Assembly: GCA_009659925.1 (NCBI GenBank)
Contig: PUXW01000007.1
Coordinates: 1 to 64,000, forward strand
Source: Nitratiruptor sp.
GTDB lineage: Bacteria > Campylobacterota > Campylobacteria > Campylobacterales > Nitratiruptoraceae
DNA: 64,000 bases
Direction: 5' to 3'
Shown here: positions 1,120 to 7,172 of the stretch, piece by piece
How positions within the stretch are numbered: position 1 is the stretch's first letter
Layout: the number at the start of each line of letters is the position of its first letter
Notes under the pieces: model-generated
The model's database searches: none
What the model was told of the DNA's origin: nothing
What the model saw: the letters and a program-made list of their open reading frames with translations, nothing else
Position numbers and translations under genes: made by a program

Positions 1120-3684
1120 TCACGGCTCGTAGTGGAGGATGACCGGTTCCGAGTAGTTGGGGACATTGTCATAGGTGAAGAGGGCGTAATATTTGGGGAT
1201 CTTGGTATTGCCGAAGTTATCATAGGTGTATTCATCTTTTCCAGCATAGATTTTGACCCCGTCGTAGGGGTTCTTAGGAGGATGGAACCGGTTGCGCACC
1301 ACGAAGGTACCAACAAAATCGGGGTCCTTGGGGTTCTTCCAGGTCAGTTTGACCATCCCCTTCTCGATGGTTGCCTTGACATTTTCGACCTGGGCCACTG
1401 GAGCCTTGCGCCGTTTGATATATTTGGTGGTCAGCTTAACCGATTTGGGTTGGAACTCGACCAGGTGGTTCTTGGTGGCCGAGGCCTTGGTAGGGCGGAT
1501 GAGAAAGCCCACCCGCCTTCCCGCTTTGTGGGCATTCTCCAACTCGATCCTGCTGGCGGTATCGAAGAGGAAGAAGTGCTTTTGCTCTTTTTGAAGCTCC
1601 TCTTCGCTGACTTCATAATCGATGTAGCTGATGGCCTCCCGCCCTTCGATCTGATGGTAACTTGGCTCGGTCGGATCGATGAATTCGATGAGGTAGCGGA
1701 TATCTTCCCCGCTCTTTTGAATCGGTCTGTTGACTAGCTCGATGAAGGCCTCGGTAATGACAGTCATATCGGCTTCGGGGAGGGCTTGCAGATCGAACTC
1801 CATGTAGCCGTAGACCACATCCCCGTCCCGGTCAAACCCCGTCTTGAGGCTCCCGCTTTCGACCCCCTCCTTGGAGATGGTCTTGAGGATCAGGGGCTCC
1901 ATATCAAGTTGGGCCGAGGGGATAGTATATTTGATATCCAGGTGGGGGCGGTAGTGGATCCCCCCGCCGTAGGGTCCATAACCGATGTCGAACATCATCA
2001 TCTGGCTATCGGCTCCAAGGGGGAGCTCCTTGGGGCCTTGCATGCGAAAGAGGACGCTCCCCTTTTCGATCTGGCGCTCCAAGAGGCGCCGCTCATACTC
2101 GTTGAGCTCCCAGGTTTTCCAGATCCCTTGGGTGAGCTGCTGGGAGGGAATGGTATCTCCGAGGGTCTGGATCACCTTGGCCTGGTCGATCTGCTGGAAA
2201 GAGGCGATATCCTCCACCTCCTCGATCATACTCAAAGACCACTCCCCAAATTTTTCGATCTTCACATTGACCCTATTGAGGGGATAGAGGCTAATACGGG
2301 CCTCCTTGATGATGGCGTTGGGAGGAAGGTTGGTGAGTTTGAAGCGCATCACCCCATAACTGACCCCCAGCCGCTTGTTGACCCCGACAAAGAGGGAGTT
2401 CTTGCCAAAGTGGTCGGGGTTTTTGGTGGATTTCTCGGCGACATAGCCGATCTCCTGGGGGTAGGGGAAGATACTGCGGAAAAATTCGTCCCGCTCCAAC
2501 TGGGTCATTACCTTGACCTGGGGGGCAAATCCCCCCTTGCGGCGGGTTACCATATCGACGGGGCGGATGTAGTAGAAGTAGAGCTTTCCCGAAGCCCGGT
2601 CCCGATCGACAAATCGAAGATCTCTGGTGGTGGCGATGAGGGAGGGTTCCCGACAGGCCTCCTTGTGTTTGTCGTTGCGATAGATTTCGAAGTAGACATT
2701 GGGATGGCTGGCCAAATCGTACTCCCAACGCAACTCGACCCGGTTGCTCCCAATCTCCTGGAGGGTGAAGTTCTCCACCCTGGGAGGGGAGTTCTTGGCG
2801 TAGTTGTGGGCCTCTCCCAGAGCATAGAGGAGGGCGGGGATATTCTCGTCGATACTCTCACTCATATTCTGGAGATAATCGGGGATGTTCCTGGTCCCAA
2901 CCTCTACCACCGCCGCTAGGATGCCCCGGGAGTAGTAGTACTCCCGTCCACTCCCGTTGATCAACTTGGCTGGGGGTTTGCCCCGGTGGATCCCATATTT
3001 CCGTCCGGTCGCCTTATAGATCTCGTAGTTCATGTTAGCACAAAGGACATTCAAATCGGTCCCGTCGATCTCGGCCTCGTGGTTGAATTTGTGGGCCGGG
3101 AAGAAGACATTGCCCTGGGAGTGGTAGTCGAGGGCGATGGTGATATTGGGGTGGCTGTCGACAAACTCCTTGATGGCCCTGGTCTCCGGTTCGCTGAAGG
3201 GTTCGGGTCCCCCGTAGACGTTGCTCTTGGGATCGGCGCTCTTGACCCACCCGACACTGAAGTTGCGGTTGAGATCGACCCCGTAACTCCCGTCAGGGTT
3301 TTTTCGCCGGTTCTTCCTCCAGAAGGAGTAGTGGAGTCGGCTATACTCAAAGCCGTCGGGATTGAGGACGGGGACGATGTAGAGGGTGTTTTTGGAGAGG
3401 GCTTCGATGACCCGTGGATCGCTTTGGTGGTTGGTGAGCAGATAGTCGATGAAGGCAATGGCCAGCTCGTTCCCGATCCACTCCCTGGCGTGGATGGTGC
3501 CGGTGTAGAGGAGGGCCGGTTTGAGATCGGCGAACTCCACATTTAAAGTGATGGTGGCCAGGACGATGGGGCGCCCCTCCCAGGTGGTCCCGATGGATTG
3601 GAGCCGGATGAGGTGGGGGTACTCCTGGACCTTGGCTTTTAAAAAGTCGATGGTATCCTGGTAGGAGCGGTAGTGGTGCTTCAA
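1120..3684 (-). CDS. M14 zinc carboxypeptidase with Fn3 and DNRLRE-like tail domains
   Basis: A large (854-residue) peptidase that should cleave C-terminal amino acids or gamma-glutamyl/amide bonds. All M14 landmarks are visible: zinc ligands His65 and Glu68 (HAREW), His188 (DYHSQG), substrate-binding Asn139-Arg140 (DLNRNF) and the general base Glu261 (VVEVGT). After the catalytic domain (about 1-290) come a fibronectin III-like domain (about 297-390), two stretches resembling DNRLRE/CBM96 beta domains (about 400-560 and 565-750) and a last Fn3-like domain. No signal peptide or membrane segment is seen at the N-terminus, which is odd for such adhesin-like modules. It is the last gene of the ATP-grasp operon, overlapping the preceding gene by 4 bases. 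The substrate is unknown; a peptide made by the neighbouring ligases is an inference. Confidence 0.85.
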   Translation of the reverse strand: MKHHYRSYQDTIDFLKAKVQEYPHLIRLQSIGTTWEGRPIVLATITLNVEFADLKPALLYTGTIHAREWIGNELAIAFIDYLLTNHQSDPRVIEALSKNTLYIVPVLNPDGFEYSRLHYSFWRKNRRKNPDGSYGVDLNRNFSVGWVKSADPKSNVYGGPEPFSEPETRAIKEFVDSHPNITIALDYHSQGNVFFPAHKFNHEAEIDGTDLNVLCANMNYEIYKATGRKYGIHRGKPPAKLINGSGREYYYSRGILAAVVEVGTRNIPDYLQNMSESIDENIPALLYALGEAHNYAKNSPPRVENFTLQEIGSNRVELRWEYDLASHPNVYFEIYRNDKHKEACREPSLIATTRDLRFVDRDRASGKLYFYYIRPVDMVTRRKGGFAPQVKVMTQLERDEFFRSIFPYPQEIGYVAEKSTKNPDHFGKNSLFVGVNKRLGVSYGVMRFKLTNLPPNAIIKEARISLYPLNRVNVKIEKFGEWSLSMIEEVEDIASFQQIDQAKVIQTLGDTIPSQQLTQGIWKTWELNEYERRLLERQIEKGSVLFRMQGPKELPLGADSQMMMFDIGYGPYGGGIHYRPHLDIKYTIPSAQLDMEPLILKTISKEGVESGSLKTGFDRDGDVVYGYMEFDLQALPEADMTVITEAFIELVNRPIQKSGEDIRYLIEFIDPTEPSYHQIEGREAISYIDYEVSEEELQKEQKHFFLFDTASRIELENAHKAGRRVGFLIRPTKASATKNHLVEFQPKSVKLTTKYIKRRKAPVAQVENVKATIEKGMVKLTWKNPKDPDFVGTFVVRNRFHPPKNPYDGVKIYAGKDEYTYDNFGNTKIPKYYALFTYDNVPNYSEPVILHYEP

Positions 3685-5108
3685 CGATCACCCTTTTTTT
3701 GGGCGCTATTATACTGAAACTCCTCCCATCCCTTCAAAAGGTGCTCAAGCCGCTTCTCCTTGATCCCCTTGATCTGCAAGAGGGCCTCTGGCTCGTGTTG
3801 GAGGCTATAGGCCAGGTTGAATAGGTCGATCTGTTTCACCACCTTGCGGGCCCGCTTCTCCCCGAGAACGCCGACCAAAAACTCCCAAAGCTCCTCTTGG
3901 CTGTAAGGGGGAGCTTCCAAGGTGTCACTGAGCTCTTGCTCCTGGACAGCCCCTTCCAGCTTCTCGCTCACAGGCTGGGGAGCGTCCCAGAACCCTTGGC
4001 AGCGGTGGGTGAAGTCCCACTCTTCACTGGGCCACTCCTCCCTGGTGCGGGGGAAGACCGGGAGCATCGGGTAGCGCTGGTCGAGCTCCCAGATCTTGTG
4101 GACCGCCCCCCTCTCGTCCATCTTTTGACGATTCAAGAAGATCGCCCCATCCTGGCTTGGAGTGTAGCGGCCAAAGGTGATGTAGCGCATCGTGCGCAAG
4201 AGGGAGCTATCGATCTTGCCCAGCTCCTCCCAGTTGTAGATGGGGATGTTGGGTTTGGGGAAGCGCCCATCGCTCAAGAGCCACATCAGATATTGGCCGA
4301 TCCAGTCGCGAATATAGGGGAAGGCGGCAAAGGCGGTGGCACATTCGAGGATACGATACTTCCCATCCTTCCCGACGGCTATGTCGCAAGCCCAATACTC
4401 GGCCTTGGCTGCCTTGCTCACCTCCACCGCCAGATCGAGGACCCCCGTTGGAACATCCATGTAGTCCATGGTTCCTCCCTGGCTGGTGTTGGTGAGCCAG
4501 TGGCCCTTGGGAGGTCGCCTCCAGAAGGCGCAAACCGGCTTGTGGCCGATGAGCATCACCCGGATATCGGCCTCCATGGGGATGAAGTCTTGAACATAGA
4601 TAGGGCAGTAGCGCTTGCTCTCAAGGAGCTCCTTGGCCTCCTGGAAACTATCGACCTTATGGACGAAGTAGCCCCCATAGTTGCTGGGACCATAACTGCG
4701 TTTGATGATTTTGGGGTAGGTGGTCTGACGCAGGAACTCCATCCCCTCCTCCCGATCGTAGAAGATGTAGGTTTTGGGGACGGGGATATCGTACTTCCAA
4801 CAAAAGCGGGTCACATTCTCCTTGGACTTGTTGGCAAACTGGCTGTCGAGGCTGGGGATGAAGCGTACATGGGGGAGCTTCCTGGCGATTTTACGGAAGG
4901 TTTCGTAGGCTGTTGCTGGAATGTTGCCAATGAGAACATCGATCTTTTTTCGCTTCACCTCCTGGATGAAGCGCTCTTCGTCCCCCTTCCAGTGGTAGAC
5001 CACCGTCTCGATCTTGTCGGGCCAGCCCCTGAAGTTGGAGCGATCGAAGAAGCGCAAGACATAGTCGAGGTAGAGCAATCCAATACGCGGTAGTTTCCTT
5101 TTCTTCAT
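3681..5108 (-). CDS. RimK-like ATP-grasp ligase with C-terminal helix-hairpin-helix
   Basis: A 475-residue ATP-grasp protein. The fold is shown by KIIKRSYGPSNYGG (ATP-binding lysine and glycine loop), the IYVQDFIPMEADIRVMLIG strand, TNTSQGG and the metal-binding stretch KYRILECATAFAAFP. Such enzymes join a carboxylate, as acyl phosphate, to an amine or amino acid. Beyond about residue 330 there is an extension not usual for RimK. Its end, near residues 425-461, reads LLQIKGIKEKRLEHLLKGW, very like the HhH repeats of RecD2/UvrC-type DNA-binding proteins. The gene overlaps both neighbours by 4 bases, so it is translationally coupled to another ATP-grasp and to the M14 peptidase. YheC/D-type similarity is possible. 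The acceptor substrate cannot be read from the sequence. Confidence 0.8.
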   Translation of the reverse strand: MKKRKLPRIGLLYLDYVLRFFDRSNFRGWPDKIETVVYHWKGDEERFIQEVKRKKIDVLIGNIPATAYETFRKIARKLPHVRFIPSLDSQFANKSKENVTRFCWKYDIPVPKTYIFYDREEGMEFLRQTTYPKIIKRSYGPSNYGGYFVHKVDSFQEAKELLESKRYCPIYVQDFIPMEADIRVMLIGHKPVCAFWRRPPKGHWLTNTSQGGTMDYMDVPTGVLDLAVEVSKAAKAEYWACDIAVGKDGKYRILECATAFAAFPYIRDWIGQYLMWLLSDGRFPKPNIPIYNWEELGKIDSSLLRTMRYITFGRYTPSQDGAIFLNRQKMDERGAVHKIWELDQRYPMLPVFPRTREEWPSEEWDFTHRCQGFWDAPQPVSEKLEGAVQEQELSDTLEAPPYSQEELWEFLVGVLGEKRARKVVKQIDLFNLAYSLQHEPEALLQIKGIKEKRLEHLLKGWEEFQYNSAQKKGDR

Positions 5109-6013
5109 ACCCTCTCCTTGATCCGTTTGTCGATGAGCTGGGCGATGGCCTCGACCTTACGGTCATTGAAATTGAGTCCCATCGTCTCTTGCTCTGGTGT
5201 AGCGAAGGCTGGAATGCCGTTGACCTCCAACACCACATAGCGATCCCGCTCCCGATCGTAGATGATATCGACCCCTGCAATCTCGATCCCAATGGCCCGG
5301 GCCGCCCTTTGGGCTAGCTCAATGACTTCAGGGCCGCAATCCTCCCTCAAGATCACACTCCCACCACTGGTTACATTGGTGCGCCAATCCCCCTCCTTGG
5401 CCCGCCGCCCATAGCAGGCGATAAACTCTCCATCTACCAGATCGATCCGGAAATCGCTGCCATCGTAGTCGATGAATCGCTCGATATAGAAGAAGCGCAT
5501 ATCAGTTTGGTTCAAGAAGGGCAAGATCATGTCGAGCTTGTCCTTGCTATCTACCAGAGCCATGCCCATGCCCCCCCAACCATCGACGGTCTTGAAGACG
5601 GCTTTCCCCCACTCTAGGACCTTGGCCCGGATCGTCTCTACATCCTCCCGATGGCACAAGAAGTAGTCGGGAGTGGGTACTCCGGCTTTGCGGAGGAGGT
5701 CGTTGGTTTTGAACTTGTCCTCACTGATCCGGAAGGCATCGAAGTTGTTGATACAAGGGATATGGCGGTCGAGCTGTTCGTACATGTAGACCTGATAGAC
5801 CGTCTGCTCTCCGGCGTTGTAACTGAAGAAGAGATCGAGCTCTTCGTAGAGGTTGATTCCACGAAAGAGCATCTGCCCGTTTTCGGCAACGGCGTAGCGA
5901 AGATTGAGGCCCGTCATGGTCTCATAACCCATCTCCTGGAGGCGGGCTACCAGCTTGGCTTCGATCCGGTCACCCCCCCCATTCTGGTACATCCAGATCC
6001 CAACCCGCGCCAT
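5105..6013 (-). CDS. RimK-like ATP-grasp ligase
   Basis: First gene of the three-gene operon, 302 residues. The ATP-grasp core is recognisable: KAVFKTVDGWGGMGM (ATP lysine and glycine-rich loop), FFYIERFIDYDGSDFRIDLV, RTNVTSGGSV, and the magnesium-binding end VVLEVNGIPAF. The size and the TN-x-SGG motif match the RimK/glutathione-synthetase group, which form amide bonds between a carboxylate and an amino acid or peptide. The start ATG at 6013 is supported by AAAGGA six bases upstream and by position next to the divergent promoter region. The 3' end overlaps the second ATP-grasp by 4 bases. Having two unlike ATP-grasps in tandem suggests two different ligation steps or a two-residue repeat. 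The substrate is not known. Confidence 0.85.
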   Translation of the reverse strand: MARVGIWMYQNGGGDRIEAKLVARLQEMGYETMTGLNLRYAVAENGQMLFRGINLYEELDLFFSYNAGEQTVYQVYMYEQLDRHIPCINNFDAFRISEDKFKTNDLLRKAGVPTPDYFLCHREDVETIRAKVLEWGKAVFKTVDGWGGMGMALVDSKDKLDMILPFLNQTDMRFFYIERFIDYDGSDFRIDLVDGEFIACYGRRAKEGDWRTNVTSGGSVILREDCGPEVIELAQRAARAIGIEIAGVDIIYDRERDRYVVLEVNGIPAFATPEQETMGLNFNDRKVEAIAQLIDKRIKERV

Positions 6014-6086
6014 GGACGATCCTTTAAGCTCTATTTTTCCTTTTTATACTACAATGGTACACAAAAAGGGATTAAAAGGGTTTGAA
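6014..6086. promoter_or_regulatory. Divergent promoter region, ATP-grasp operon / M20 peptidase
   Basis: This 73-base AT-rich spacer separates the leftward ATP-grasp operon from the rightward M20 gene. Plus-strand -10 candidates are TATACT (6045-6050) and TACAAT (6050-6055). Minus-strand TATAAA falls at the same place. Neither has a good -35 box, which is common in Campylobacterota. The overlap of the two -10 regions means the two units could be co-regulated. Confidence 0.5.
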
Positions 6087-7172
6087 ATGGGCTACGATTT
6101 CTCCGAACTGGCAGAGGTAGTGACCATCAACTCCTACACCAAAAATAGGGAAGGGGTCAACCAGGTTGGAAGGCTCTTCCAGGAGAAGTTGGAGGCACTC
6201 GGTTACGAGACGACAACCATTCCCAGCCAGGTCTACGGCAACCACCTCTACTTCCAGAGTCCAAAACGACAGGGAAAGCGGATGCTCCTGCTAGGCCATT
6301 TGGACACCGTCTTTCCTCCTGGAACCTTCGAGGAGTTTCGCGAGGATGGGGAGTGGATCTATGGGCCTGGAGTGTGCGACATGAAGGGAGGGCTCATGGT
6401 CATGGTCGAGGCCCTGCGGGCCCAGGAGCAAATTACCAACATCGATATCCTGCTCGTCAGCGACGAAGAGATTGGCAGTGACGACTCCCGCCCCCATACC
6501 AAGAGGATTGCCGCCCAGTACGACTATACCCTGGTCTTCGAAGCGGCAGGCCCCAACGGAGAGATCGTCACGGGGCGTAAGGGCATTGGCACCTTTTATG
6601 TTGACATCGATGGGAAGGCTGCCCACGCTGGGAACAACTACCAGGATGGGATCGACGCTAATGCGGAATTGGCCCACAAGCTCCTCTCCTTGATCAACCT
6701 CACCGACATCGAGGCGGGGACGACCCTCAATGTGGGAAAGATTGAAGGGGGAATCGGGGCCAATACCATCAGCCCCCACGCCCATATGATCTTCGAAGCC
6801 CGCTTCACCACGGCCAAGGAGCGGGACCGCATCCTCCAATCCATCACACAAATCGTCGATACCTCCTTCATACCTGGTACGAAGGCCACCCTTCGGGGCG
6901 GTTTACAGCGGGACGTGATGGAGGAAAACCAACAACAACGGGCCTTCATCGCCCTCCTGGAGGAGTGGAGCAAACAGCAGATCTTAACGGAGCAGCGTGG
7001 GGGTGGGAGCGATGCCAATATTGCTGCAAGTGCCGGGAGTATCACCCTCGATGGTTTTGGCCCCTTTGGCGATGGGGACCATACGATCCACGAGCGGGCC
7101 AGTAAACGGAGCTATCTCGAGCGTATCGAGCTGGTCTCTCGGATCTTTGCCGGCTTCATGGGAAGCCTTTAG
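6087..7172 (+). CDS. M20 family metallopeptidase (glutamate carboxypeptidase-like)
   Basis: A 361-residue zinc peptidase of the M20 (ArgE/DapE/CPG2) family. Seen motifs: GHLDTVFP (zinc His and catalytic Asp), GPGVCDMKGG (bridging Asp), SDEEIGS (catalytic Glu and zinc Glu), HAGNNYQDGIDAN (dimerisation-domain His) and a final HTIHERASK zinc His. The sequence is closest in feel to carboxypeptidase G2-type enzymes, which release C-terminal glutamate or similar residues. No signal peptide is present. ATG 6087 is preferred because AAAAGGG lies six bases upstream; an in-frame ATG at 6057 is possible. It is divergent from the ATP-grasp/M14 operon, which suggests it trims or salvages the same product. 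It converges with the next gene with a 4-base overlap. Confidence 0.88.
   Translation: MGYDFSELAEVVTINSYTKNREGVNQVGRLFQEKLEALGYETTTIPSQVYGNHLYFQSPKRQGKRMLLLGHLDTVFPPGTFEEFREDGEWIYGPGVCDMKGGLMVMVEALRAQEQITNIDILLVSDEEIGSDDSRPHTKRIAAQYDYTLVFEAAGPNGEIVTGRKGIGTFYVDIDGKAAHAGNNYQDGIDANAELAHKLLSLINLTDIEAGTTLNVGKIEGGIGANTISPHAHMIFEARFTTAKERDRILQSITQIVDTSFIPGTKATLRGGLQRDVMEENQQQRAFIALLEEWSKQQILTEQRGGGSDANIAASAGSITLDGFGPFGDGDHTIHERASKRSYLERIELVSRIFAGFMGSL

Follow-up and report, generated by a model that had tools for sequence, protein, structure and literature searches.

Co-Occurrence of the Four Genes

The first 64,000 nucleotides of contig PUXW01000007.1 of Nitratiruptor sp. (hereafter the window) carry a cassette of four genes, which code for an M20 metallopeptidase (M20), two proteins of the ATP-grasp family (AG1 and AG2, the latter with a helix-hairpin-helix, or HhH, tail), and an M14 zinc carboxypeptidase (M14). 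The four genes are kept across Campylobacterota, occur whole in another phylum, and are cleanly missing from some sister genomes, and as such most likely do one job. We give about an even chance to this job being the reversible addition of glutamate by a self-contained cassette, in which AG1 (with AG2) would be the writer and M14 and M20 the erasers.

Family alignments were built for each protein, and each was searched against the same 298 genomes of Campylobacterota (E-values from these whole-genome searches are per genome). The cassette recurs in several families of the phylum. AG2 is found in 31 genomes, AG1 in 30, M14 in 31, and M20 at family grade (more than 560 bits) in 31, these counts being of species and not of independent events. 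All four genes are jointly present in 29 of the 298 genomes, and a partial set or remnant is found in five only. The order AG1-AG2-M14 is constant in 67 distinct complete loci, with M20 beside AG1. Because both order and content recur in so many loci, the arrangement is not due to chance. The preliminary description of the window had staked its proposal beforehand on the co-conservation of the four genes in related genomes, and this expectation is strongly borne out. In two genomes (G037 and G162) AG2 is present but lies elsewhere in the genome.

Outside the four genes, the neighbors in the loci read vary by lineage and are mostly housekeeping genes. A further conserved partner was sought by clustering these neighbors, and the only recurrent ones were lineage-specific housekeeping genes. 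The four proteins have correlated distance matrices (Pearson 0.60–0.91, AG1 being the lowest), which does not prove co-evolution, given their single common history.

Gain, Loss, and Spread of the Cassette

Within the genus, AG2 is found in 10 of 15 relatives and missing from five, and the syntenic site was read in four of these five. Between G011, which has the cassette, and G001, which does not, blastn homology breaks off where the gene preceding M20 stops and picks up again where the gene following M14 starts, with some 90 bases left in the empty site. The difference between the two genomes consists of the four genes alone, a gap of 6 kb. In G005, G012, and G013 the same flanking genes are found and the set is missing. 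The sister genomes G302 and G286 provide another example: the former has all four genes (locus L186), and in the latter M14 alone is left between the same neighbors (L194), which suggests a recent loss of M20-AG1-AG2. The cassette is lost or gained as a unit.

A complete cassette was also found by tblastn in a plasmid collection, in Photobacterium sp. DA100 (Gammaproteobacteria). There, M20 is likewise divergent, the 4-base overlaps between genes are identical to those of the window, and the identity to the nearest members in Campylobacterota is 58% for M20, 58% for AG1, 64% for AG2, and 56% for M14. Spread beyond the phylum is known from this one match. The contig scan covered close relatives of AG2 only, of which the best 80 of 347 are all from Campylobacterota, and the scan of viral contigs showed no relatives of AG2. 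The holders are bacteria of the sulfur world and, once, a marine Photobacterium, among which the four genes move and vanish as one block. The preliminary description had proposed that ligases and carboxypeptidases of one locus make, trim, and recycle a peptide or poly-amino-acid tail, with the chemistry taking place in the cytoplasm. The core of this idea, that of one functional set, is well supported, because the genes are co-conserved, are whole in another phylum, and are lost or gained together; the tail itself is a prediction.

The DA100 cassette (L198) lies on a replicon of 2.1 Mb (NZ_CP119424.1), which is filed as plasmid pDA100, has only three annotated features in the PLSDB table, and resembles the second chromosome of a Vibrionaceae genome. 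In the phages collection, cyanophages (e.g., NC_031235.1) have ATP-grasp genes distantly related to AG2 (23%–28% identity), annotated as ribosomal protein S6 glutaminyl transferase. An anti-phage defense system was considered and rejected, none of the four proteins having a match in PADLOC-DB.

The Two Carboxypeptidases

M14 contains a catalytic domain (residues ∼1–295), followed by FN3-like and DNRLRE-like β domains and a C-terminal β domain. No signal peptide was seen in the M14 homologs, and those aligned begin directly with the catalytic domain, in agreement with the cytoplasmic chemistry proposed earlier for want of export signals. In sequence, the catalytic domain can be aligned with carboxypeptidases T, A, and B; in the structure model, the matches are with carboxypeptidases A, B, O, and T. 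The zinc-binding, carboxylate-binding, and catalytic residues (H65, E68, H188, R123, N139, R140, and E261) are invariant, and so is R247. An ungapped alignment places R247 opposite residue 255, which is Ile in CPA4 and Asp in CPB. Residue 255 sets the specificity of M14 enzymes, and an Arg at this position confers acid specificity on carboxypeptidase O; Xenopus Cpo.1, which has Arg255, cleaved FA-EE and neither FA-FA nor FA-FF (PMC9925722). With an Arg at 255 and intact zinc- and carboxylate-binding residues, M14 has the sequence features of an acid-specific enzyme similar to carboxypeptidase O, and is predicted to be a cytoplasmic carboxypeptidase that prefers acidic residues. The argument on residue 255 rests on the sequence alignment because the structure models were built from shallow alignments and the active site of M14 was modeled with low confidence.

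An Arg at 255 would also accept aspartate. Together with the presence of a poly-aspartate hydrolase among the relatives of M20, and with the different catalytic motif of AG2 (see following), this is consistent with the same logic being applied to another amino acid, such as aspartate, or with AG2 acting first with a different residue to give a mixed peptide. However, the nearest curated models of AG1 are glutamate ligases, and we regard these variants as improbable.

By far the best match of M20 in PDB is carboxypeptidase G2 (CPG2; profile E = 1.6e-43). The zinc and catalytic residues (H71, D98, E127, E128, E152, and H332) and the substrate-site residues (H180, N226, R239, and R275) are invariant, and we take them to be the equivalents of the zinc site, catalytic Glu, H229, N275, R288, and R324 of CPG2, with R275 in the place of R324. 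The two-zinc site, the catalytic Glu, and the dimerization domain (M20_dimer, E = 2.6e-18) are those of the M20A carboxypeptidase G2 type. M20 also resembles LysK, and the closest folds include LysX/ArgX structures, as if the cassette were part of the lysine or arginine route that uses an amino-group carrier (LysX/ArgX with LysK). This is hardly credible, since the scores are far below cut-off for both LysX (110 versus 275 bits) and [LysW]-lysine hydrolase (54 versus 363 bits), and neither LysW nor the kinase, reductase, or aminotransferase is found in any cassette.

The Two ATP-Grasp Proteins

The curated models nearest to AG1 are MptN and the RimK family, which are glutamate ligases, and all of them score below cut-off. 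MptN is the best (128 bits, cut-off 350), and this holds in 27 of 27 homologs. The scores are lower for the RimK S6:glutamate ligase (PRK10446; 66.8 bits, cut-off 331), glutathione synthetase (54.9 bits, cut-off 272), and NAGGN synthetase (43.9 bits, cut-off 569). Neither AG1 nor AG2 attains the curated cut-off of a known single-pathway enzyme, a match that the preliminary description had named as grounds for refuting its proposal. In the structure of RimK with polyglutamate, R189 and N262 contact the last glutamate (PMC10092738). Their equivalents are kept in AG1 (R189 and N265) and are invariant in the 27 homologs; D249 and E263 are also kept. The Arg255 equivalent of M14, the CPG2-like M20, and these RimK-type terminal-glutamate residues of AG1 make glutamate the most likely residue to be added.

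Similarity with RimK brings in ribosomal protein S6 as a possible acceptor, because RimK and RimB are the writer and eraser of glutamate on RpsF (PMC11957791). The C-terminal tails of S6 were compared in 30 genomes (28 informative tails, G001 and G011 being left out), and no signature tracks the cassette. The sisters G302, with the cassette, and G286, with M14 only, have a common tail (...EAAKKAN), and the tails of cassette holders range from KKAN to AAAE. These tails lend S6 no support as an acceptor. The N-terminal domain of AG1 does not align to RimK either, and a RimK-type route ending on S6 seems very unlikely.

AG2 has an invariant LECATAFAAFPY instead of the usual LEVN metal motif. The metal ligands D242 and E255 are kept, and the Asn is replaced, within an invariant ECATAF, which leaves AG2 short of the three ligands (Asp, Glu, and Asn) of a catalytic ATP-grasp ligase. 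AG2 retains both the arginine and the TN..GG substrate motif. In the AlphaFold2 model, a body similar to RimK/LysX is followed by a disordered linker (∼377–397) and a separate helical bundle, the C-terminal HhH (∼404–474). The HhH assignment made in the preliminary description is weak in the protein of the window (HHH_5, E = 0.17 only) but clear across homologs (HHH_5 in 23 of 34 and HHH_3 in seven of 34, the best at 3.8e-27). Judged by these motifs, AG2 is an atypical ATP-grasp protein with an HhH tail of the nucleic-acid type.

The C-terminus of AG2 varies in length. It is shorter in L056 (G020), where the protein has 421 aa, and in L187 (G313), where it has 410 aa; the HhH part of G020 is in a different frame, so that the tail is perhaps a separable element or has been lost. 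AG2 has ∼500–510 aa in L063, L064, L065, L179, and L182. In the first three of these the extra length is a second, ComEA-like HhH block, and the number of HhH units varies.

Distant relatives of AG2 include MvdC/MvdD and PsnB-type ligases. This could point to a cluster for a ribosomally synthesized and post-translationally modified peptide of the graspetide type, in which the ATP-grasp protein modifies a short precursor peptide and the carboxypeptidase matures it. Yet AG2 scores only 26.6 bits against MvdC (cut-off 425) and 19.5 bits against MvdD (cut-off 475), and the loci read contain no recurrent small open reading frame (ORF) of at least 80 aa in or beside the cassette and no recurrent exporter. 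In the window the 4-base overlaps between the genes leave no space for a precursor. The chances of such a cluster seem slim indeed.

Proposed Reversible Glutamate Addition

If the cassette serves reversible glutamate addition, AG1 would activate a carboxylate of the acceptor as an acyl phosphate and then ligate glutamate. AG2 would present the acceptor, perhaps a nucleic-acid-bound protein, or form a different bond. M14 and M20, both of them cytoplasmic carboxypeptidases with a predicted preference for acidic residues (Glu), would shorten the tail again or recycle the glutamate peptides set free. AG1 would therefore work in the direction of addition and the two peptidases in that of removal, on a tail presumably longer than one residue. 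That the acceptor lies near nucleic acid is a guess, suggested by the HhH tail. A bolder version is a mobile bacterial writer and eraser of protein polyglutamylation, similar to TTLL/CCP, in which the HhH-bearing AG2 would steer the system to a nucleic-acid-bound protein; we hold this to be unlikely.

Several observations weigh against reversible glutamate addition by the four proteins together. Partial sets are found in G249 (AG2 and M14), G286 (M14 only), G056 (M20 only), and G030 (M20 and AG1, on a 4-kb contig), and AG2 is decayed in G080; some members can hence persist alone for a time. M14 shares Arg at 255 with carboxypeptidase O, but it is a cytoplasmic protein of 854 aa and has no equivalent of Tyr248, the position not being conserved. 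M20 shares with CPG2, a glutamate carboxypeptidase, the zinc and catalytic set and the equivalent of R324, but K208 is not conserved, R164/K165 being nearby. Lacking the third metal ligand (the equivalent of N262), AG2 may act not as a ligase in its own right but as a partner. Finally, the N-terminal region of AG1 is not alignable to the region of RimK that makes the distal-tail contacts (S7, R8, S14, and R64), so that the acceptor and tail length of AG1 need not resemble those of RimK.

The main rival is a cassette acting on small molecules, in which AG1 and AG2 would build a soluble glutamate peptide or the side chain of a cofactor, M20 and M14 would recycle it, and no protein would be tagged. 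Small glutamate conjugates are the substrates of M20 enzymes of the CPG2 type, and MptN, the best curated model of AG1, is a cofactor glutamate ligase, acting on tetrahydrosarcinapterin. There is also a precedent in MyfB, one of two ATP-grasp proteins (MyfA and MyfB) needed for the polyglutamate side chain of methylofuran; MyfB is 33% identical to MptN and gives a free polyglutamate product in vitro (PMC8141765). Against this, AG1 scores far below the MptN cut-off, and the ∼560 aa of additional FN3- and DNRLRE-like domains in M14, as well as the HhH tail of AG2, are more typical of proteins with macromolecular substrates. Its patchy distribution within the genus and its lack of any further biosynthetic enzyme imply that the cassette does not make an essential cofactor. 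We regard the small-molecule alternative as possible, with clearly less than an even chance of being correct.

Gene Layout in the Window

The window is the beginning of a contig in a 1.44-Mb genome of Campylobacterota, whose relatives include metagenome-assembled genomes of Nitratiruptor and Sulfurovum. The positions of the four genes are given in Table 1. The family assignments made earlier for M14, M20, and the two ATP-grasp proteins are confirmed by the Pfam matches, and the ORF coordinates reproduce the 4-base overlaps at AG1/AG2 and at AG2/M14, as well as the spacing between AG1 and the divergent M20. The promoter proposed to be shared in this spacing was not recovered: no σ70-like consensus was found in the region 5900–6200. 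Among the 67 loci, M20 is divergent in 53 and co-directional with AG1 in 14. A divergently transcribed M20 does not characterize the set in general.

Table 1. Features of the Four-Gene Locus
Feature	Position	Strand	Length	Evidence
M14 zinc carboxypeptidase	1120..3684	-	854 aa, TTG start	ORF; Peptidase_M14 2.4e-57 (Pfam)
AG2, ATP-grasp + helix-hairpin-helix	3681..5108	-	475 aa	ORF; RimK 1.4e-12 (Pfam)
AG1, RimK/MptN-like ATP-grasp, predicted glutamate ligase	5105..6013	-	302 aa	RimK 2.2e-22 (Pfam)
Intergenic region AG1-M20, between divergent transcription units	6014..6086		73 bases	
M20 metallopeptidase	6087..7172	+	361 aa from ATG	Peptidase_M20 6.1e-21, M20_dimer 2.6e-18 (Pfam)

Next to M14, at positions 1–1068, the contig starts inside a CRISPR-associated gene (TIGR02221, cas_TM1812; 77.9 bits, cut-off 76.25). 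The same gene, 91% identical, lies at a contig end in the relative G014.

Comparison with Known Systems

Glutamylation as an activity is already known, from RimK/RimB and from tubulin. In the literature searched, which does not take in the amidoligase survey of Iyer et al. (2009), nothing turned up on the four-part set, on a cytoplasmic bacterial M14 of the acid type, or on an arrangement with two ligases. If reversible glutamate addition is correct, the cassette would be a second dedicated bacterial glutamylation system besides RimK/RimB, using M14 and M20 and having a new acceptor. The clean pairs of presence and absence within one genus, together with the Photobacterium copy, make the cassette directly testable.

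We propose that the cassette works like RimK/RimB or TTLL/CCP while being a member of neither. RimABK likewise pairs an ATP-grasp ligase, one related to AG1, with a glutamate-removing protease, and has a patchy distribution, ascribed to horizontal transfer (PMC11957791). However, RimABK has one ligase where the cassette has two; its acceptor is S6, of which there is no sign here; and in place of M14 and M20 it has the retropepsin-like protease RimB, encoded beside rimK. Two ATP-grasp proteins also act together in MyfA/MyfB (PMC8141765), and MptN is the nearest curated model of AG1, but the cassette has no cofactor pathway and includes peptidases, and AG1 scores well below the MptN cut-off. The likeness to the polyglutamylation of tubulin in eukaryotes by TTLL/CCP is one of logic, with a writer of the ATP-grasp type and a cytosolic M14 eraser; cytosolic M14 enzymes with acidic specificity have been mentioned (PMC6214572). 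In contrast with that system, the cassette is bacterial and has no tubulin to act on, and its M14 is of the carboxypeptidase A/T type with FN3 and DNRLRE domains.

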